Below are positions 1-21,673 of a stretch of 64,000 bases of DNA, one piece after another. The stretch is taken from contig JANYDG010000106.1 of NCBI GenBank assembly GCA_025359885.1, forward strand, positions 1 through 64,000, read 5' to 3'. Both the position numbers and the translations under genes were made by a program. Each line of letters starts with the position of its first letter. The first letter of the stretch is position 1. Origin of the DNA: Acidobacteriota bacterium (GTDB lineage: Bacteria; Acidobacteriota; Terriglobia; Terriglobales; Acidobacteriaceae). The notes under the pieces were generated by a model. It was given only the letters and a program-made list of their open reading frames with translations, did not search any database and was not told the origin of the DNA.

Positions 1-339
1 AATCAGGTTGCACTTTCATACCACTGCAATCGGTAAGTAGCGGTATCAGTCACTCGCCTTCTCGCCTTGGCGAAGTCAGACCTGTGCTTCTTCATGACTT
101 CATCGTCTTCTATTTTGCTCGATGCTGCTCTTTCGATTCACGCTTGTGGTTGCGTTTGGATGCTGAATCTCACTCAAACGTCCGCGCACAGAATGGCCGT
201 CGACGCGTCTATGTAACCGCAAGAGGATTACGCCTCGATGAATCTCCGCTCACAGTCGTCAATCCGCCATTGGCTGCGTGAATTCCCCACTGGCGAATCC
301 GGGGTGCGCAGGGGGCTTACTCATTGGTATACTGGTGAT

Positions 340-1368
340 GTGACACTTCTTGCCTCTGAAACCGTCTCTGACCTTGGCCACGTGAACGCTCCCGTGAGCC
401 AGAAGCGTGTCCTGCTGCTCAAACCCCGCGGATTCTGCGCCGGTGTGGTCCGTGCGATCGATATTGTGAAGATTGCGCTCGATACATTTGGTGCGCCGAT
501 TTATGTGCGCCGCGAGATTGTGCACAACCGTTTCGTCGTCAATGAACTGGCTGAAAAGGGTGCGATCTTCGTCAATGAGATCGAAGAAGTGCCACCGGGC
601 CAGCGCGTAATTTACTCGGCCCACGGTGTTTCGCCGGCGGTGCGCGAGGCCAGCAAGGCTCGTGGTCTCAAGGTTATCGATGCGACTTGCCCGCTGGTTA
701 CCAAAGTCCATGTCGAGGCCATCAAGTTTGCGAAGGATGGATATTCCCTGGTGCTGGTGGGCCATCGCGACCACGATGAGATTGAGGGCACCCTGGGCGA
801 AGCCCCTGAGGCTACCCAGGTGGTTTCGAATGTGGCTGAGGTTGAGGCCCTGGTTGTGCCCAATCCGGACCGTGTCGCCTATCTGACCCAGACCACGCTG
901 TCGCTTGACGAGGCCCGCGATATCATTCACGCTCTCAAGGTCAAGTTCCCCAATATCGTTGGACCGCATACGCAGGATATCTGCTACGCCACCGAGAATC
1001 GCCAGGTCGCAGTGCGCAACGTTGCTCCCGGAGCGAACCTGGTACTTGTTGTCGGCTCGACTAACAGCTCCAATTCAAACCGTCTCGTCGAGGTTTCAAA
1101 CAATCTCGGAACCCAGGCATACCTGATTGACAATTCTGCGGCCATCGATCCGAAGTGGTTGGAGGGAGTTGATTCTGTGGCTGTTACCGCTGGGGCCTCG
1201 GCACCGGAGGTGCTGGTCGAGGACGTGATCAATTATTTGCAACAAAACGGCTATGGCAGCGTCGAAGAAGTAGAAGTGATGCCTGAAAATGTGCGCTTTG
1301 GCTTGCCGCCGGAGATCATTCAGGCTATCGGTGGCGCAGGTGGTGCGCAGTCGATTCCCGTTCGCTAA
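340..1368 (+). CDS. ispH: 4-hydroxy-3-methylbut-2-enyl diphosphate reductase (IspH/LytB)
   Basis: ORF 238..1368; LLKPRGFCAGVVRAIDIV, YVRREIVHN, DATCPLVTKVH, CYATENRQ motifs; GTG start near 340 is inferred from where homology begins. Confidence 0.95.
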   Translation: MTLLASETVSDLGHVNAPVSQKRVLLLKPRGFCAGVVRAIDIVKIALDTFGAPIYVRREIVHNRFVVNELAEKGAIFVNEIEEVPPGQRVIYSAHGVSPAVREASKARGLKVIDATCPLVTKVHVEAIKFAKDGYSLVLVGHRDHDEIEGTLGEAPEATQVVSNVAEVEALVVPNPDRVAYLTQTTLSLDEARDIIHALKVKFPNIVGPHTQDICYATENRQVAVRNVAPGANLVLVVGSTNSSNSNRLVEVSNNLGTQAYLIDNSAAIDPKWLEGVDSVAVTAGASAPEVLVEDVINYLQQNGYGSVEEVEVMPENVRFGLPPEIIQAIGGAGGAQSIPVR

Positions 1369-3512: not shown

Positions 3513-4652
3513 ATGGCTGTACCCATCTCGCAGATGTGGACCGTAGCAACGTACGTGATCAAGAAGAAGCTCAGCGGTGAGAAGAAGTACCCGCTCGTGC
3601 TGATGTTGGAGCCGCTTTTCAAGTGCAACCTGGCTTGCGCCGGATGTGGCAAGGTACAGTATCCGCCTCACATTTTGAAGAAAGAGCTGAGCCCCGAGGA
3701 ATGCTTTGCTGCGGTTGAAGAGTGCGGTGTGCCGATGGTTTCGATCCCCGGCGGCGAGCCGCTGCTGCACAAGCAGATTGTCGAGATTGTCAACGGCCTG
3801 ATTGCGCGCAGGAAATACATTTACCTCTGCACCAATGCTCTTCTGCTCAAGGAACGCATCCACGAGTTCACGCCTTCGAAGTACCTTACGTTCTCAGTTC
3901 ACCTGGACGGGCAGCGAGAGCATCACGATATGTCGGTCTGTCGCGAAGGTGGCTGGGATCTGGCAGTGGAAGGCATCAAGGAAGCGGTGAAACGCGGATT
4001 CCGCGTCACGCCCAACTCGACCTTTTTCGACGGGACTGACCCGAACATGGTGCGCGCTTACTTTGACGAAGTCATGGCGATGGGGGTCGAGGGCATCGTG
4101 CTCTCGCCCGGCTACAGTTATGACAAGGCACCTGACCAGCAGCACTTCCTGGGGCGCGCCAAGTCACGCCGCCTCTTCCGCGCCATTCTGTCGAACCGCA
4201 AGAAGTCGTGGAAGTTCAACATGTCGCCGTTGTTTCTTGAATTCCTGATGGGCAAGCGCAACTACGAGTGCACTGCCTGGGGTTCTCCGGCGTACAGCAT
4301 TTTTGGCTGGCAAAAGCCCTGCTACCTGCTACAGGACGGCTACACCGAAACCTACAAGGAACTTGTCGAAACCACCAACTGGGATGAGTACGGCACGGGA
4401 AGCGGCAATCCCAAGTGTGCCAACTGCATGGTCAGTTGCGGTTATGAGCCGAGTGCTGTGCAGCATGGATTCGGCAGTTTCAGCGGATTCTTTGGGATGG
4501 CGAAGGCGTATCTCTTTTCGTCCTATAAAGACAAGGGCGCACTTGACCTTTTGAATAACCACTCCACCTTTGCCGCCCAGCATAATCACTTTGTCAAGGT
4601 CGAGAGCATTGCCTCGGCAACGACGGCCCAGCTGGAGGAGACACGCGCATGA
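3513..4652 (+). CDS. hpnH: adenosyl-hopene transferase, radical SAM protein HpnH
   Basis: radical SAM CNLACAGC motif, HpnH-like length and context directly after shc. Confidence 0.95.
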   Translation: MAVPISQMWTVATYVIKKKLSGEKKYPLVLMLEPLFKCNLACAGCGKVQYPPHILKKELSPEECFAAVEECGVPMVSIPGGEPLLHKQIVEIVNGLIARRKYIYLCTNALLLKERIHEFTPSKYLTFSVHLDGQREHHDMSVCREGGWDLAVEGIKEAVKRGFRVTPNSTFFDGTDPNMVRAYFDEVMAMGVEGIVLSPGYSYDKAPDQQHFLGRAKSRRLFRAILSNRKKSWKFNMSPLFLEFLMGKRNYECTAWGSPAYSIFGWQKPCYLLQDGYTETYKELVETTNWDEYGTGSGNPKCANCMVSCGYEPSAVQHGFGSFSGFFGMAKAYLFSSYKDKGALDLLNNHSTFAAQHNHFVKVESIASATTAQLEETRA

Positions 4653-5068
4653 GCCAGCCTGCACCTGTTGTTAATGTGGATGAACTGGAAGTGATGGATG
4701 GCTTTGCCCACGAAAACCTCGAGGGCTGGATTCCTACTCTGGCCAGCGACGAAGACCTGCGGGTTGCGCTCGAAAAGGCCTTTGACTACCGCGGCGATAT
4801 TACCCTGACCTTCAAGAACGGCCAGCGCGTCGAGGCCTACATTTTCAACCGGATCTCGGGTAAATCCCTGGCTGACTCGTTCGTGCAATACTTTGCCGCC
4901 AACTCCCCTGAGAAGCGCAAGGTCGGTTACGCCGAGATTGCGCGGATTGAGTTCACTGGCAAAGACCGCGCCGCTGGCAAGCACTGGGAGGCCTGGATGC
5001 AGAAATACGCCGAGAAAAAGGCAGCCGGTGAAAAGAATATCGCGCTCATGCCCGAGGCACTGGACTAA
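4649..5068 (+). CDS. small conserved-looking protein of unknown function inside hopanoid operon
   Basis: 139 aa ORF; ATGA overlap with the hpnH stop; no recognisable family; no signal peptide evident. Confidence 0.8.
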   Translation: MSQPAPVVNVDELEVMDGFAHENLEGWIPTLASDEDLRVALEKAFDYRGDITLTFKNGQRVEAYIFNRISGKSLADSFVQYFAANSPEKRKVGYAEIARIEFTGKDRAAGKHWEAWMQKYAEKKAAGEKNIALMPEALD

Positions 5069-5217: not shown

Positions 5218-6213
5218 ATGAAGATATTTCTCACAGGCGCGACCGGCTTCGTAGGCCACCACGTAGCCCGCGAACTGGCTGCGCAGGGCGCAGAGCTGCG
5301 CCTGCTGGTTCGCAAGACCAGCAGTCTCGCAAATCTGGCCGGCATCCCGGGCGAAACCCACACCGGCGATCTCAGCGATCCGGCCAGCATCGCGCCTGCG
5401 CTCGCGGGCTGTGATGCTGTCTTCCACGTAGCTGCCGACTATCGCCTTTGGATTCCTGAACCTGCAGCGATGTACCGCGCCAACGTTGACGGTACCCGCG
5501 AACTGCTGCGACTGGCCCGTGAGGCCGGCATCCGCCGCGTCGTTTACACCTCGAGCGTCGCCACCATGGGCTTTCGCAATGACGGAATCATCGTCAACGA
5601 AGACACCCCTGTGGCCCTCGAAAACATGGTTGGCCACTACAAGCGCTCCAAGTTCCTTGCCGAGCAGGAAGCCCTTGCCGCCGCCAGACTCGGTCAGCAG
5701 GTGATGATCCTCAATCCGACCACACCCATCGGTTCGCACGACGCCAAGCCCACCCCTACAGGCCGCATCTTTGTCGATTTTCTCAATCGAAAATTTCCTG
5801 CTTATGTCGATACCGGGCTCAACCTGGTCGACGTTCTGGAGGTCGCTCGCACGCACGTTGCCGCTCTCGAAAAAGGCACCTCCGGCAGGCGCTACATTCT
5901 CGGCGGCGAAAATCTCTCCCTGAAGCAAATCCTCGACAAGATGTCTGCCATCACCGGCATTCCTTCGCCAACGGTCAAAATTCCCTTTGCAGTGGCAGCA
6001 GCCTACGCATTCTTTGAAGAGAACATTACCGGTCGCATTCGTGGCAAGGAACCACGCGCCACGCTTGAAGAGGTCCGCATGGGCCGCAAAAAAATGTACG
6101 CTTCGTCGGCGCGCGCCCAGCAGGAACTTGGCTTTCGCACCAGCCCGGTGTACCCGGCGATGCGAGCGGCGATTGAATGGTTTCGCGACAACGGATACGC
6201 CCCAAAATCATGA
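5218..6213 (+). CDS. hpnA: hopanoid-associated sugar epimerase HpnA (extended SDR)
   Basis: GATGFVGHHVAREL Rossmann motif, YKRSKFLAE (YxxxK); context. Confidence 0.92.
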   Translation: MKIFLTGATGFVGHHVARELAAQGAELRLLVRKTSSLANLAGIPGETHTGDLSDPASIAPALAGCDAVFHVAADYRLWIPEPAAMYRANVDGTRELLRLAREAGIRRVVYTSSVATMGFRNDGIIVNEDTPVALENMVGHYKRSKFLAEQEALAAARLGQQVMILNPTTPIGSHDAKPTPTGRIFVDFLNRKFPAYVDTGLNLVDVLEVARTHVAALEKGTSGRRYILGGENLSLKQILDKMSAITGIPSPTVKIPFAVAAAYAFFEENITGRIRGKEPRATLEEVRMGRKKMYASSARAQQELGFRTSPVYPAMRAAIEWFRDNGYAPKS

Positions 6214-6929
6214 CGAACCAGCATAAACCTCGCCCTGTTTATATCGCTGCAATGCGCCGAGAGGTAGGCTCGCTCGTCCATGGCTGGCGCATTAGTGAAA
6301 CCCTCGCTGCGCGGAATATCCATCTTTACTGGAACGATCATGCGGTTGTTGCCTGCGCTGGCCTGGGTGGCGATCGCGCCCGGCTTGCGGTTCAGGCGGC
6401 TCTTACCCTTGGGCCAGCCTCAGAGTTGGTTTCAGTTGGCTGGGCGGGTGCCTGCATTCACCGGCTGCACGTCGGTGACGTGGTCTGGCCGGATATTGTT
6501 GTCGATGCGCAAACCGGGGAGCGCTTTTTCCCGCTCAAACATCGAACTCCGACAGAGGGGCTGGAAATCCTCGTCACTGTCGCTGCGCCTGCCGGAGTTG
6601 CCGAAAAGGAGCGTCTTGGCGTCAGCTACTATGCCTCTGCAGTTGACATGGAAGCTGCCGCGGTGGCGCGGCTGGCACTGGCGCAGGGAATTCCGTTCCA
6701 GGCAATCAAGGCAATTTCCGACAACGCTTCGTTTGAAATGCCCGATATGGCCGACTTTTCAACTCCCGATGGTCAGTTCCGCGAGGCAGCATTTGGCCTC
6801 CACGTTGCGCTGCGCCCGCAGCTTTGGAGCCCCGTCGCAACCATGGCACGAGGCAGTAAACTGGCTGCACAGCGTCTGCAATCAGAAATCAAGTCGCATA
6901 TCGAGCAGCATCGGAAGACGAAGCCATGA
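6210..6929 (+). CDS. hpnG: nucleoside phosphorylase-like protein, HpnG-type
   Basis: VSVGWAGA, SAVDMEAAAVARLA and AISDNA motifs of the PNP/MTAN family; ATGA overlap with hpnA. Confidence 0.85.
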   Translation: MTNQHKPRPVYIAAMRREVGSLVHGWRISETLAARNIHLYWNDHAVVACAGLGGDRARLAVQAALTLGPASELVSVGWAGACIHRLHVGDVVWPDIVVDAQTGERFFPLKHRTPTEGLEILVTVAAPAGVAEKERLGVSYYASAVDMEAAAVARLALAQGIPFQAIKAISDNASFEMPDMADFSTPDGQFREAAFGLHVALRPQLWSPVATMARGSKLAAQRLQSEIKSHIEQHRKTKP

Positions 6930-8026
6930 GCACCGTGACAACTCCCGTGACCATTCCAGCAACCATGCACGCAGCGGTCTACCGCGGCATCAACGAGGTT
7001 CGTGTAGAAACAGTCCCCGTACCTGAGATTGGTCCCGGCGAATTGCTCATCCGGGTTGCATCCTGCGGCATCTGCGGAACCGATCTCAAAAAAATTCACA
7101 CTGGCTCGCACTCGGCACCTCGCATTTTTGGCCATGAGACGGCAGGCATTGTCGTTGCTGTCGGCGATGGAGTCAGCACCTTTGCCGCAGGCGACCGAGT
7201 GATGGTCTTTCACCACATCCCGTGCAGGAGCTGCTATTACTGTCGAAAAAAGACATTTGCTCAGTGCGCGGTCTACAAAAAGGTTGGAGTTACGGCAGGC
7301 TTCGAACCGTCCGGCGGCGGTTTTGCAAGCTTCGTTCGCGTGATGGACTGGATCGTGCGCGACGGTGGAGTCGTTCCTATTCCGAACGGCGTTCCCTTTG
7401 AACAAGCTGCATTCGTCGAGCCTGTGAATACCTGCCTCAAAGGCATCAAGATGCTCAATCTGCAGCCCGACGAGACAGTGCTGGTTATCGGTCAGGGCCC
7501 GATCGGCATTCTACTTGCATCGCTGGCCCTGAAAACGGGCGCCACGGTCCTCACATCGGACCTGTATCCTGCGCGTCACGCCGTTGCGGCGACCTTTGGA
7601 TTGAAAAACCCTATCCATGCCGGCACAGAAGACGTCGCCGCCCGCGCCAAAGCAGCCACTGAGGGTCGTGGTGCCGACGCGGTGCTCATTGCTGTGGGTC
7701 ACGATGCTTTGATTCGCACTGCCATGGAGGCTGTGCGCCCCGGCGGCAAAGTGATGCTCTTTGCCCAGACCCAGCACGGTGAGGCAATCTTTGACCCAGG
7801 AGCTGTCTGCATGGACGAAAAATCCCTGCTCGGTTCCTATTCCGCCGCGGTTGATATTCAGGAGGAGGGCGCGATGCTGGTCTTTGATGGCTACCTCGAC
7901 GGCACCTTTGATCTGACACGGCTCGTTTCGCATCGCTTTGCGCTGGAGCAGGCAGTCGAAGCCATCGACATCGCTTCACACCCGACTGCAACTTCCATGA
8001 AAATCATGATCGAGCCGGGGAGTTGA
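6926..8026 (+). CDS. zinc-dependent medium-chain dehydrogenase (MDR) 1
   Basis: CGICGTDLKKIH, GHETAG (catalytic Zn), CRSCYYCRKKTFAQC (structural Zn), VIGQGPIGILLA Rossmann motif; ATGA overlap with hpnG. Confidence 0.93.
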   Translation: MSTVTTPVTIPATMHAAVYRGINEVRVETVPVPEIGPGELLIRVASCGICGTDLKKIHTGSHSAPRIFGHETAGIVVAVGDGVSTFAAGDRVMVFHHIPCRSCYYCRKKTFAQCAVYKKVGVTAGFEPSGGGFASFVRVMDWIVRDGGVVPIPNGVPFEQAAFVEPVNTCLKGIKMLNLQPDETVLVIGQGPIGILLASLALKTGATVLTSDLYPARHAVAATFGLKNPIHAGTEDVAARAKAATEGRGADAVLIAVGHDALIRTAMEAVRPGGKVMLFAQTQHGEAIFDPGAVCMDEKSLLGSYSAAVDIQEEGAMLVFDGYLDGTFDLTRLVSHRFALEQAVEAIDIASHPTATSMKIMIEPGS

Positions 8027-9150
8027 ATCGGATGACCCCCCTGGCCGAGACCGTGACCGCCGAGACCATGACCGCTGCAGTCCTCTATGGCAAGGAAGAT
8101 GTTCGCATCGAGCAGGTTCCCGTCCCTCGCGCAGCGCCCGGCGAAATCATCATCCGCGTGGCGGCAGCGCTTACCTGCGGCACAGATTTGAAGGTTTTCC
8201 GACGCGGCTACCATGCGCGGATGATTCAGCCGCCCGCCCTTTTTGGCCACGAAGTTGCGGGAATTGTCTCTGAAATCGGTGCAGGAGTCAGGGATTTTGT
8301 CCCAGGCGATCGCGTTGTCGCACTCAACTCTGCCCCCTGCGGCGCATGCTACTGGTGCCAGCGCGACCAGGAAAACCTCTGCGCTGATCTGCTCTTTAAC
8401 AACGGAGCGTATGCCGAGTACATCCGCATCCCGGCCCGCATTGCCGCCAAAAACGCGCTACGCGTGCCGGCCGATGTTTCCCTGGAACACGCCGCCCTCA
8501 CCGAGCCGCTCGCTTGCGCCCTGCACGGCTTCGAAGACTCAAATCCCCGCGCCGGAGATGCCATCGCGGTGATTGGCGGCGGGCCTCTGGGCTTGATGAT
8601 CATGCACGTCGCCGCGCTCGCGGGTTGCCATGTGATCGCAGTCGTCAAGCACGATGCCCAGGTCGAGGTGGCAAGAGCTCTCGGCGCGTCGTACGTGATC
8701 CAAACAACCGAAACTGAAGATGCAGTTGCGGCTGTGCGCAGCCTCACTGCAGAAGGTCGCGGAGTCGACATCGCCATTGAGGCAGTCGCCCTGCCTGAAA
8801 CCTGGCAGCAGGCCGTCGCGATGGCTCGCAATGGCGGGACGGTTAATTTCTTTGGAGGCCCGGCAGCCGGCACCGAGGTTCGCCTGGACACCAATCGCCT
8901 GCACTACGGCGACCTCACGCTCAAGGCCACTTTCCATCACACCCCGGCTATTTGCCGACGCGCCTTTGCACTGATTTGCAGTGGACAATTTCAGGCCAGC
9001 CGCTTCATCACGGGCCACGCGCCGCTGGGTGAACTGAATCAGGCGTTCGCACAATTATTGAATCGGGGCTATCAGGTTGAGGGAAACCATGGCAACCTGA
9101 TCAAGACTGCGATCCTGCCTGCGGTCTGCGGCACTGAAGCATTACCATAG
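8023..9150 (+). CDS. zinc-dependent medium-chain dehydrogenase (MDR) 2
   Basis: CGTDLKVF, GHEVAG, CGACYWCQRDQENLC, VIGGGPLGLMI; overlaps MDR1 stop; start TTG 8023 or ATG 8032. Confidence 0.93.
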   Translation: MNRMTPLAETVTAETMTAAVLYGKEDVRIEQVPVPRAAPGEIIIRVAAALTCGTDLKVFRRGYHARMIQPPALFGHEVAGIVSEIGAGVRDFVPGDRVVALNSAPCGACYWCQRDQENLCADLLFNNGAYAEYIRIPARIAAKNALRVPADVSLEHAALTEPLACALHGFEDSNPRAGDAIAVIGGGPLGLMIMHVAALAGCHVIAVVKHDAQVEVARALGASYVIQTTETEDAVAAVRSLTAEGRGVDIAIEAVALPETWQQAVAMARNGGTVNFFGGPAAGTEVRLDTNRLHYGDLTLKATFHHTPAICRRAFALICSGQFQASRFITGHAPLGELNQAFAQLLNRGYQVEGNHGNLIKTAILPAVCGTEALP

Positions 9151-9155
9151 ACACA

Positions 9156-10145
9156 ATGAGGGCGACATCGACCATACCGACGGAGCAGGCAAGCCCTCTT
9201 GAAATGGGCTGGGCCGCGTTGCCTGAGAGCTATCGCATACCTGCAGCCGTCCCTTCGCTGGCCGAATCACGCGCCTGGTGCAAGAACCTGGCTGAGAGCC
9301 ACTACGAGAATTTCCACGTGGCAAGCTGGTTTCTGCCCCAGAAACTGCGCCCGCATTTTCACGCCGTTTACGCATACTGCCGCGTTTCAGACGATTTAGG
9401 GGATGAGACAGGGAATCGGGAACAGTCACTCGCCCTCCTTGACCAGTGGTCTGAGGAACTCGATGCCTGTTACGCGGGCCGAGCTCGTCACCCGGTCTTT
9501 GTGGCGCTGGCTGAGACGATACGGATCTGCAACATCCCGAAAGAGCCCTTTGCCGATCTGCTCACCGCCTTCAAGCAAGACCAGACCAAGTCTCGCTTTG
9601 CCAACATGGACGAAGTTCTCGACTACTGCCGATACTCAGCCAACCCTGTCGGGCGCCTGGTGCTTTATATGTGCGGCTATTCAGATGAGGAGCGATTTTG
9701 CCTCTCTGACTTCACTTGCACCGCGTTGCAGCTTGCAAATTTTTGGCAGGATGTAGCCAGCGACTACCAGCAGCGAGACCGTATTTACCTGCCTCACGAC
9801 GCGATGTTGCGGTTTGGAGTGACGGAAGCCACGATTGCTGCAGGGACCGCAACGCCCGGGTTCCGCGCCCTGTTGCGCGATCAGACCGACTACGCGCGCC
9901 AACTCTTTGGTGCTGGCATTCCTCTCATTGGTATGGTTGAGAACGAATTAGCCGTCGATCTCGATCTCTTTAGCCGCGGCGGCCTCGAGATTTTGCGCGC
10001 TATCGAGCAGCGTGATTATGACGTGCTCTCGGCGCGACCCGCTATTTCCAAGGCCACCAAACTTTCGCTTGCCTTGCGTGCCGTCACAGGAAAATTCCTG
10101 CCAGGGCTGCGTCTCAGGTCACAGACCGGGGCTGGTCCGAAATGA
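9156..10145 (+). CDS. hpnC: squalene synthase HpnC (hydroxysqualene synthase)
   Basis: HAVYAYCRVSDDLGDE aspartate-rich motif, trans-isoprenyl diphosphate synthase fold; precedes hpnD. Confidence 0.93.
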   Translation: MRATSTIPTEQASPLEMGWAALPESYRIPAAVPSLAESRAWCKNLAESHYENFHVASWFLPQKLRPHFHAVYAYCRVSDDLGDETGNREQSLALLDQWSEELDACYAGRARHPVFVALAETIRICNIPKEPFADLLTAFKQDQTKSRFANMDEVLDYCRYSANPVGRLVLYMCGYSDEERFCLSDFTCTALQLANFWQDVASDYQQRDRIYLPHDAMLRFGVTEATIAAGTATPGFRALLRDQTDYARQLFGAGIPLIGMVENELAVDLDLFSRGGLEILRAIEQRDYDVLSARPAISKATKLSLALRAVTGKFLPGLRLRSQTGAGPK

Positions 10146-11107
10146 CGGCGCAAGTACAAACGCCTTTGAACGTCGCGAACCTTCAAGACGCCTACAAAAT
10201 CTGTCGAGCCATTGCGAAACGCGAGGCGAAGAATTTCTACTATGCATTTGTCGCTCTGCCCCCAGCCCGCCGGAATGCCATTTGCGCTGTCTACGCCTTC
10301 ATGCGCAAGGCTGACGACCTTGCCGATGATGAGAGTTTCAGTCGCGAAGATCGCCGCCGCCAGCTTGACGCATGGCTCGAAGAATGGCACGCGGCACGCG
10401 ACGGAGCAGCTACTTCTGACGCGGTCTTCGTAGCGGTTCGGGATGCCGCTGCCAGCTTTCGCATCCCGTTCACCCTGCTCGATGAATTGATTGCCGGGGT
10501 CACAATGGACCTCGAAGCGCCAACTTCAGACGTACCAAATACCACTGCCCCCTATGCCACCTTTGATGAGCTGTATCGCTATTGCTACCTTGTTGCCTCG
10601 GTGGTGGGCCTGGTCTGCATCCGTATCTTTGGGTACTCTGACCCGCGCGCCGAACTGCTGGCTGAAGAGACCGGCATCGCCTTTCAGCTCACCAATATCC
10701 TGCGCGACGTCCGTGAAGACGCGGAGCGAAATCGAATTTATCTTCCCATTGACGCTCTTGCCCACAACGATGTTTCTGTTGACCAGCTGCTGCACCGGCC
10801 ACCAGCAGGCACAAACATGACGATCACTGCCGAAGAGCGCCAACTCTTGCGCGCAATCGCTCTCCGCGCCGAGGGCTACTACCAATCTGCTCAGGAGCTG
10901 TTGCCGCTGATTGACCGGGAAAGCCGCCCTGCTCTCTGGGTACTGGTCACTATCTATCACCAACTGCTTAAACGCATCGAAAAGGCAAACTACGACGTCT
11001 TTTCGAAGCGCATCAGCGTTCCTAAATTTGACAAGCTGGCAATCCTTTTTGTCGGTCTGGGCAAGATGGCTGCGATGCGGCTGTTCAAACCGCTATCCTC
11101 AAGGTAG
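10142..11107 (+). CDS. hpnD: presqualene diphosphate synthase HpnD
   Basis: AVYAFMRKADDLADD and FQLTNILRDVREDAERNRIYLP motifs; ATGA overlap with hpnC. Confidence 0.95.
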   Translation: MTAQVQTPLNVANLQDAYKICRAIAKREAKNFYYAFVALPPARRNAICAVYAFMRKADDLADDESFSREDRRRQLDAWLEEWHAARDGAATSDAVFVAVRDAAASFRIPFTLLDELIAGVTMDLEAPTSDVPNTTAPYATFDELYRYCYLVASVVGLVCIRIFGYSDPRAELLAEETGIAFQLTNILRDVREDAERNRIYLPIDALAHNDVSVDQLLHRPPAGTNMTITAEERQLLRAIALRAEGYYQSAQELLPLIDRESRPALWVLVTIYHQLLKRIEKANYDVFSKRISVPKFDKLAILFVGLGKMAAMRLFKPLSSR

Positions 11108-11113
11108 TCGCCT

Positions 11114-12589
11114 ATGCCCGCTTCCCCTGAACATGATTTGAGCCAGCCCGGTCAAAACCTGCCCGGCCTCGATCAACCGGATGCCCTGACATCCAGCAAA
11201 CCCAGAGTCACTGTTGTTGGCGGAGGCGTAGCCGGCCTTGCAGCGGCGTGTGGCCTGGCGAGCGCTGGTTTCCCGGTTACCGTGCTTGAGCGCCGCGGCT
11301 ACCTCGGCGGACGCGCTTCCTCTTACCTGCACCCGGGCGCGGGCGAAATCATCGACAATTGCCAACATGTCCTCTTTGGCTGCTGCACTAACCTGATTGG
11401 CTTTTACGAGCGCATCGGCGTGGCAGACCAGATCTTCTGGGATAGCCGCATGACGCTGATCGAGCCAGGAGGTAGGCGCTCTACGCTGTCCCCCTCACGC
11501 CTGCCTGCACCGCTGCACGGGCTACCGGCAGTCCTTGCAGCTCGCTGTTTCTCCATTGCCGACAAGCTTTCCCTTGGCTTTGCGTTCACCTCGCTGATGT
11601 TGCTCCGCAAGCCAGACCCTGCACGTTCTCTTGCCGAATGGCTCCAATCGCACCTTCAGTCCAGGGGGGCACTCGCCCGTTTCTGGTGGCTGGTTATTGC
11701 CAGTGCCCTCAATGCCGATCTCGATCAGATCAGCTTGCCCTACGCCGCCAAGGTGATCCGCGAGCTCTTTTTGAATTCACCAACCGCTGGCAGCATGGGC
11801 ATGAGCACCGTTCCGCTAAGCGAACTCTGCCAGGGGGCTCAGACCTACCTTGAGGCGCACGGTGGCAGGATTCAGTTCAACGCCAATGTCGATGCTGCGA
11901 GCTGGAATTCGGAATCGTGCCAATGGATGATTCAAACCCGAAGCGGCGTACATGTATCAGACCTGCTCGTCCTCGCCCTGCCCTTTGAGGCGACTGCGAA
12001 GCTCCTGCCCAACCTGCCCACGAATGCTGGAGCGACCGCACTCGCCGCCAACATTGAGAAGCTCGAGCACTGGCCGATCTGCAGCGTCCATCTCTGGTAC
12101 GACCGCGAAATTACTGAGCTTGACCACGCAGTTCTGCTCGACCGCGACATTCACTGGATGTACCACAAGTCACGGTGGCAGCCCCGTCGGGACTCAAACG
12201 CCAGCTATATCGAGCTCGTCATCAGTGCGTCGCGCGAGTTTGCCACCCTGAGCCGCGAAGAAGCCCTGAAACGCGCCACCGACCAGCTTGCGGAGTTCTT
12301 TCCTGCCGTGAAGAGCGCCCGGCTACTGAAATCGGTGCTCGTGAAGGAAGTCCGGGCGACATTTGGTGTGCCCCCTGGAATCGATTCAGCACGCGCTGGG
12401 ACCGGCTCTCCGTGGCCGAACTGCTTCCTGGCCGGCGATTGGACGGCGACTGGCTGGCCATCGACCATGGAGTCTGCCGCGCGCAGTGGACATTTCGCCG
12501 CTGAGGCCATCTGCCACAGCCTCGGCGACAAGCGCACACTCCTGGTGCCCGACCTCAAGCCAACCGGTCTGATGAAGTGGCTTGGTTGA
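11114..12589 (+). CDS. hpnE: hydroxysqualene dehydroxylase / squalene-associated FAD oxidoreductase HpnE
   Basis: VTVVGGGVAGLAAACGLASAGFPVTVLERR FAD motif, C-terminal LAGDWTATGWPSTMESAARSG. Confidence 0.95.
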   Translation: MPASPEHDLSQPGQNLPGLDQPDALTSSKPRVTVVGGGVAGLAAACGLASAGFPVTVLERRGYLGGRASSYLHPGAGEIIDNCQHVLFGCCTNLIGFYERIGVADQIFWDSRMTLIEPGGRRSTLSPSRLPAPLHGLPAVLAARCFSIADKLSLGFAFTSLMLLRKPDPARSLAEWLQSHLQSRGALARFWWLVIASALNADLDQISLPYAAKVIRELFLNSPTAGSMGMSTVPLSELCQGAQTYLEAHGGRIQFNANVDAASWNSESCQWMIQTRSGVHVSDLLVLALPFEATAKLLPNLPTNAGATALAANIEKLEHWPICSVHLWYDREITELDHAVLLDRDIHWMYHKSRWQPRRDSNASYIELVISASREFATLSREEALKRATDQLAEFFPAVKSARLLKSVLVKEVRATFGVPPGIDSARAGTGSPWPNCFLAGDWTATGWPSTMESAARSGHFAAEAICHSLGDKRTLLVPDLKPTGLMKWLG

Positions 12590-21544: not shown

Positions 21545-21587
21545 CAAAACATGGGGTGGTATTTGTGATTCCCACGCTAGCCACAAA

Positions 21588-21673
21588 CGCCCCACGGACG
21601 AAGACCTGTCCGTGGGAACCCCTGATAAAACGCCCCACGGACGAAGACCTGTCCGTGGGGACCCCTGATAAAA
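21588..21673. repeat. two tandem 43-bp units, each with a 9-10 bp inverted repeat (CCCACGGAC...GTCCGTGGG)
   Basis: read directly: cgccccacggacgaagacctgtccgtggg(a/g)acccctgataaaa twice. Confidence 0.95.

Follow-up and report, generated by a model that had tools for sequence, protein, structure and literature searches.

A co-inherited pair of zinc-dependent dehydrogenases in the hopanoid operon of Acidobacteriota as a candidate lineage-specific module for side-chain redox chemistry

The hopanoid operon of an acidobacterial genome (Acidobacteriaceae; assembly GCA_025359885.1, 4.2 Mb, 94.8% complete) was analyzed within a window of 64,000 nucleotides (contig JANYDG010000106.1, positions 1 to 64,000 of the forward strand), with a focus on two adjoining genes for zinc-dependent medium-chain dehydrogenases/reductases (MDRs), here called MDR1 and MDR2. 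In other bacteria, HpnH makes adenosylhopane and HpnG releases adenine from it to give ribosylhopane; the side chain of bacteriohopanetetrol (BHT) is ribitol-like. All genes of the operon are on the plus strand, in the order ispH-shc-hpnH-ug3-hpnA-hpnG-MDR1-MDR2-hpnC-hpnD-hpnE:

238..1368, + strand: IspH (LytB), PF02401 309 bits
1417..3453, + strand: squalene-hopene cyclase (shc), TIGR01507 745 bits
3513..4652, + strand: HpnH, radical SAM adenosylhopane synthase, TIGR03470 538 bits (cut-off 225)
4649..5068, + strand: ug3, small conserved protein of 139 aa, without family match, conserved in its position after hpnH
5218..6213, + strand: HpnA, hopanoid-associated "sugar epimerase" of the extended short-chain dehydrogenase/reductase (SDR) type, TIGR03466 474 bits (cut-off 368)
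6210..6929, + strand: divergent HpnG-like purine nucleoside phosphorylase/nucleosidase, TIGR03468 76.2 bits (cut-off 187.1), PF01048 64 bits
6926..8026, + strand: MDR1, zinc MDR dehydrogenase of the NAD(H) type (Asp212), 366 aa, from Pfam, zinc ligands and AlphaFold2
8023 or 8032..9150, + strand: MDR2, zinc MDR dehydrogenase of the NADP(H) type (K/R206, R/H207, no acid), from Pfam, zinc ligands and AlphaFold2
9156..10145, + strand: HpnC, TIGR03464 355 bits (cut-off 250)
10142..11107, + strand: HpnD as best family, 243 bits, under the curated cut-off of 279
11114..12589, + strand: HpnE, TIGR03467 432 bits

A preliminary description of this DNA had placed the two MDR genes between an HpnG-like gene and hpnC, overlapping at start and stop codons with hpnG and with each other. 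Both open reading frames lie there and the flanking families were matched by profile; the overlap of hpnG and MDR1 is seen as an ATGA junction, which also joins hpnA to hpnG, and ATGA-type junctions recur at hpnH/ug3 and hpnC/hpnD. The overlap of MDR1 with MDR2 holds if MDR2 starts at the TTG at 8023 (375 aa), and the closest relative (locus L009, 91% identical) has a GTGA overlap at this junction, but it disappears with the ATG at 8032 (372 aa), an equally good or better start, preceded by GGGGAG at a distance of 9 nt and leaving a 5-nt gap after MDR1. The MDR2 start also contains a 15-nt repeat in 2.1 copies (positions 8044-8075, GCCGAGACCATGACC), which creates several in-frame possible start codons.

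The same gene positions were described by Sinninghe Damsté in 2017 (PMC5462960), where the genes after hpnG, before hpnC and after hpnH were named ug1, ug2 and ug3, with functions unknown. By position, the ug1 and ug2 of clusters C and A in that survey are the same genes as the pair analyzed here: MDR2 is ug2, a Zn-binding alcohol dehydrogenase of ~350 aa that was grouped with hpnCDE, and MDR1 is, from its position, probably ug1, on whose nature the main text of the survey is silent and which here turns out to be a second zinc MDR. The range of families with MDR2-like genes proved wider than in the survey. What is new in the present analysis is the partnership of the two genes, their conserved zinc ligands, their cofactor signatures, and their resemblance to polyol dehydrogenases and ketose reductases.

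Both proteins score well over the cut-offs of Pfam ADH_N and ADH_zinc_N (88.5 and 65.7 bits for MDR1, 90.0 and 88.9 bits for MDR2), and their AlphaFold2 models are confident MDR folds (predicted local distance difference test, pLDDT, of 93.5 for MDR1 and 91.6 for MDR2). The catalytic and structural zinc motifs, which had been called complete from the window alone, consist of C50/H70/E71/E165 and Cys4 100/103/106/114 in MDR1 and of C49/H73/E74/E158 and Cys4 103/106/109/117 in MDR2, and both sites are invariant or nearly so across 122 MDR1 and 110 MDR2 orthologs. In MDRs, cofactor choice is set by which residue ends the second Rossmann strand, and these strand ends were located in the AlphaFold2 models: MDR1 has an NAD(H) signature, with Asp212 ending the strand in 121 of the 122 orthologs, and MDR2 has an NADP(H) signature, with Lys/Arg206 followed by Arg/His207 and no acid. 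This split is not universal, because the MDR2 relatives in families f47, f45, and f25 have an acidic residue at the position that marks the cofactor. An insertion in MDR1 (G-TAGFEP-GGGF) is limited to close orthologs.

Profile searches placed both proteins in the neighbourhood of ketose reductases and of sorbitol, xylitol, galactitol-1-P, threonine, and butanediol dehydrogenases, and a fold search of MDR1 led to the same enzymes (polyol/ketose, threonine, and butanediol dehydrogenases). The top match in these searches was the uncharacterised protein 4ej6, with polyol/ketose, threonine, and butanediol enzymes also among the best. The NADP(H) ketose reductase/sorbitol dehydrogenase (PDB 1e3j, 1pl6, 3qe3), among the best characterised matches, shares the fold and the zinc MDR family, but is only ~23-26% identical to MDR1 in the fold alignment and has no demonstrated hopanoid substrate. 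By structure and sequence, the relatives appear to be for the most part enzymes that act on secondary alcohols of polyols or ketoses, and an epimerase or another kind of redox tailoring would fit this at least as well as aldehyde reduction. No NCBIfam equivalog was over its cut-off for MDR1 or MDR2. The top NCBIfam scores of both belonged to L-threonine 3-dehydrogenase (TIGR00692/NF003808; 144 vs 380 bits for MDR1, 181 vs 458 for MDR2) and to the scyllo-inosose 3-dehydrogenase IolM (NF041097; 141 and 162 vs 450 bits), and both annotations were rejected as lying far under the cut-offs.

The best MDR2 match in the plasmid collection was a zinc-binding dehydrogenase of Rhodococcus opacus pLPS8 (WP_242323970), 44% identical to MDR2 and placed within its broad clade (support 0.97). 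It is, in contrast, a single gene in a sugar/polyol operon (major facilitator superfamily transporter, FGGY kinase, DeoR, MDR, class II aldolase), with no MDR1 partner and no hopanoid genes nearby. Given this kinase/aldolase operon and the kinship to polyol dehydrogenases, a pentitol-like substrate fits, and the side chain of BHT is of this kind.

The two genes are inherited together. In each of the 80 loci retrieved through their similarity to MDR1, MDR2 lies directly downstream of MDR1, so the arrangement is not due to chance, and hpnA, hpnG and/or hpnC adjoin the pair in nearly all of these loci where the contig is long enough. The related loci came from Acidobacteriaceae, Terracidiphilus, Silvibacterium, Acidipila and similar, and their genes were called by codon usage, which is unreliable at AT-rich loci (e.g., L170). 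In a sample of 297 acidobacterial genomes, with close MDR1 orthologs defined as matches of ≥ 358 bits (the next match had only 196 bits), a close MDR2 ortholog was present in 47 of 47 MDR1-bearing genomes (Fisher p 4e-54, an optimistic value since the genomes are related), and MDR2 was present in 48 genomes, of which only G132 lacked MDR1. Some Terriglobales genera have the operon split exactly between the two genes, with hpnA-hpnG-MDR1 at one site and MDR2-hpnC-hpnD at another (in genome G217 at 1.79 and 2.42 Mb, ~0.6 Mb apart); both genes are retained after the split, which argues for one joint function. In the trees, the broad clades of MDR1 and MDR2 received supports of 0.99 and 0.97, and the members of distant tandem pairs sorted consistently, so the pairing either predates the linkage to hopanoid genes or travelled as a unit. 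We do not claim a single tandem duplication as the origin of both genes, as support was lacking for the two clades being sisters (0.51).

The split arrangement also bears on an alternative in which MDR2 would be part of squalene synthesis and might, for example, supply electrons to HpnE. MDRs perform hydride transfer on alcohols and carbonyls, and MDR chemistry is, as a matter of general knowledge, not called for by that pathway. Although MDR2 stands directly before hpnC-hpnD in the examined split-type loci (L152-L168), and ug2 was filed with hpnCDE in 2017 (PMC5462960), we consider this role improbable, given that MDR2 hardly ever occurs without MDR1 and that HpnC, HpnD, and HpnE of other bacteria are enough for squalene production in E. 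coli, according to the summary given in PMC5462960.

The association with hopanoid genes was followed across the same genomes. A close MDR1 ortholog co-occurs with hpnH in 43 genomes and is found without hpnH in 4. In the preliminary description a search for the pair beside hpnG and hpnH had been suggested; made within Acidobacteriota, it gave a mixed outcome, with linkage in families f1, f2, f28, and f50 and its absence in f39 and in more distant families. In the linked families the pair is positioned between hpnA(-hpnG) and hpnC/hpnD, in 30 of the 31 genomes of f1 (the contig of the exception stops inside the operon) and, at about 50-53% identity, still inside the hopanoid operon in f2, f28, and f50. 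The gene order within f28 varies around a constant neighbour: MDR1 stays beside hpnA while hpnG is missing or elsewhere, and loci L181, L208, L220-L222, and L226 read ispH-hpnA-MDR1-MDR2-hpnD, with neither hpnG nor hpnH adjoining. In genome G188 (L182) the run is hpnH-hpnA-MDR1-MDR2-hpnC-D-E, from which hpnG is absent.

On these grounds we favour, with moderate confidence, the reading that in Terriglobales, and in a small number of further families, the MDR pair is a lineage-specific module whose substrate is the side chain of the C35 hopanoids, on which it carries out redox chemistry. HpnH and the HpnG-like enzyme would supply the ribose-derived C5 side chain to the pair; the NADPH-dependent MDR2 would reduce a side-chain carbonyl (ribosylhopane in its open-chain aldehyde form, or a keto intermediate), and the NAD+-dependent MDR1 would oxidise a side-chain hydroxyl. 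The combined outcome would be BHT made from ribosylhopane, or a BHT with one hydroxyl inverted or otherwise tailored. The opposite cofactor signatures suggest that one enzyme oxidises and the other reduces, and such a division of labour appears the likeliest mechanism; what each enzyme acts on, and in which direction, is predicted from sequence.

More specific versions of this reading are held with less confidence. That the module edits stereochemistry, so that Terriglobales would have a BHT stereoisomer encoded in their genes, or else carries out the lineage's own ribosylhopane reduction, seems plausible but somewhat short of an even chance. That at least one MDR would be the ribosylhopane reductase of this lineage is a tentative suggestion, and epimerisation or other redox tailoring of the polyol is an equally tentative one. 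In the strict form of an oxidoreductive epimerase, MDR1 with NAD+ would oxidise a hydroxyl and MDR2 with NADPH would re-reduce it from the opposite face to yield a BHT stereoisomer; the opposite signatures, the co-occurrence of the genes even when unlinked, and their kinship to secondary-alcohol polyol enzymes are all consistent with it. We nevertheless rate this sub-case as rather unlikely, with the acid-bearing MDR2 relatives of f47, f45, and f25 speaking against it, and with acidobacterial BHT stereochemistry not found in a literature search of titles and abstracts. Periodate degradation erases side-chain stereochemistry. This procedure was used in the acidobacterial survey (PMC5462960).

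The idea put forward originally was that the pair could supply the enzyme reducing ribosylhopane to BHT, or else oxidise or epimerise the polyol chain, the reduction being described as a step that lacks an established enzyme. The latter statement agrees with PMC5462960 and with a 2025 study, in which the BHT-forming enzyme is still not established (PMC12583986), and our search of a limited literature collection found no dehydrogenase assigned to the conversion, so the proposal had not already been refuted. As side-chain candidates the two genes hold up, being co-inherited, intact at their zinc sites and, in Terriglobales and several additional families, linked to hopanoid genes. As the general missing reductase of hopanoid biosynthesis they do not: a role of this kind would call for the pair throughout hpnH-bearing genomes and for its absence where side-chain genes are lacking, but close MDR1 orthologs are absent from 33 of the 76 hpnH-positive acidobacterial genomes (31 of these 33 belong to other families) and in genome G221 the pair is present although hopanoid genes are absent. 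Two absences were set aside, that in G007, whose contig (L187) ends shortly after ug3, and that in G250, which is 81% complete. The examined shc-hpnH clusters of the MDR1-negative families contain no MDR, with hpnA found in most of them and hpnG where detectable. Chloracidobacterium thermophilum, moreover, produces BHT although ug2 was not found in it (PMC5462960), even if the Chloracidobacterium-like genomes of f32 (a likeness that we infer) hold an MDR2 relative at 42-46% identity. Despite the ATGA coupling to the HpnG-like gene, the still vacant step, and the tight linkage in Terriglobales, a general reductase is therefore very improbable.

The same genomes lend weight to another explanation, in which HpnA reduces the side chain, while the substrate of the MDRs is some sugar or polyol other than a hopanoid and their presence in the operon is a historical accident. 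HpnA and the MDR pair are both oxidoreductase-type proteins of hopanoid clusters, HpnA being an extended SDR of unproven role and not an MDR. HpnA was over its cut-off in 22 of the 25 tested genomes that are hpnH-positive and MDR1-negative (two of the three exceptions are G007 and G250) and adjoins hpnH in most examined clusters; hence it is HpnA, and not the MDR pair, that tracks the side-chain pathway across the phylum. It was also suggested for the conversion of ribosylhopane to BHT in the 2017 survey (PMC5462960). However, hpnA was reported to be non-essential for BHT in Burkholderia cenocepacia and to be absent from Rhodopseudomonas (cited in PMC5462960), and accident poorly explains why no fewer than four families have retained the pair together with hpn genes. 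We regard this explanation as having a minor but real share of the probability, since G221 and the other contexts of the pair in f39, f47, f45, and f77 are what it predicts.

These other contexts also weigh against a hopanoid role of the pair. In f39 (L205, L219) a ~50%-identical pair resides, away from hpn genes, in a conserved neighbourhood of WYL regulator, QueF-like gene, proline dehydrogenase, MDR1, and MDR2, and G221, one of the two f39 genomes concerned and ~100% complete, has neither shc nor hpnH nor an HpnA over the cut-off, which is why a non-hopanoid function keeps a low but appreciable probability. The position of the f39 branch in the MDR1 tree had a support of only 0.17, so the tree is compatible with both a gain of the hopanoid recruitment and its loss in f39. 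Distant pairs (31-46% identity) occur outside hopanoid clusters in f47, f45, f32, f34, f60, f25, f66, and f77, beside unrelated genes, and the ancestral role therefore need not be hopanoid; in the examined genomes of f45, f34, f60, and f25 (G078, G207, G176, G132, G230) hpnH and shc were not over the cut-off. Finally, the favoured reading draws on genes, zinc sites, signatures, co-occurrence, and operon structure, and the enzymatic activity itself is predicted.

The neighbours of the pair were scanned against families in f39, f47, f45, f60, and f77, and no common non-hopanoid partner was present among those compared in f39, f47, f45, f32, f34, f60, and f25. In genome G267 a distant pair lies ~15 kb from hpnH, a proximity that was not taken as significant because so many families had been inspected. 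On a contig of f47 (G135:C15), two squalene-hopene cyclase genes, both full-length, are separated by about 0.45 Mb.

Two further genes of the operon deserve a comment. The HpnG-like gene is the sole HpnG candidate of the source genome and, while the cut-off of TIGR03468 is not reached, its position between hpnA and MDR1 is conserved among relatives, so that it is probably a diverged HpnG. Relatives often share no more than 30-60% identity in the HpnG-like protein encoded here, far less than in the neighbouring genes, and automatic annotation may therefore overlook hpnG in this lineage. Its N-terminal AMRREV presumably aligns with the water-activating Glu of methylthioadenosine/S-adenosylhomocysteine (MTA/SAH) nucleosidases, in which case hydrolysis would be favoured over phosphorolysis. 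The ug3 gene, without a Pfam or NCBIfam match, overlaps the hpnH stop and, where the contig reaches that far, is present after hpnH in almost every Terriglobales locus. Farther along the window, a near-perfect 43-nt tandem repeat (AAACGCCCCACGGACGAAGACCTGTCCGTGGGAACCCCTGATA) is located between two genes at 21585-21673.

Hopanoids are key geological biomarkers, and for their use in Acidobacteriota the MDR pair is unsuitable as a general marker of BHT synthesis; within the phylum, HpnA is the better match to the distribution of hpnH. Being co-inherited and lineage-specific, the two dehydrogenases form a small, testable gene set. If the proposed role is true, they would either provide a side-chain reductase for a phylum that is abundant in soil or explain genetically a BHT stereoisomer, which may be usable as an acidobacterial biomarker.

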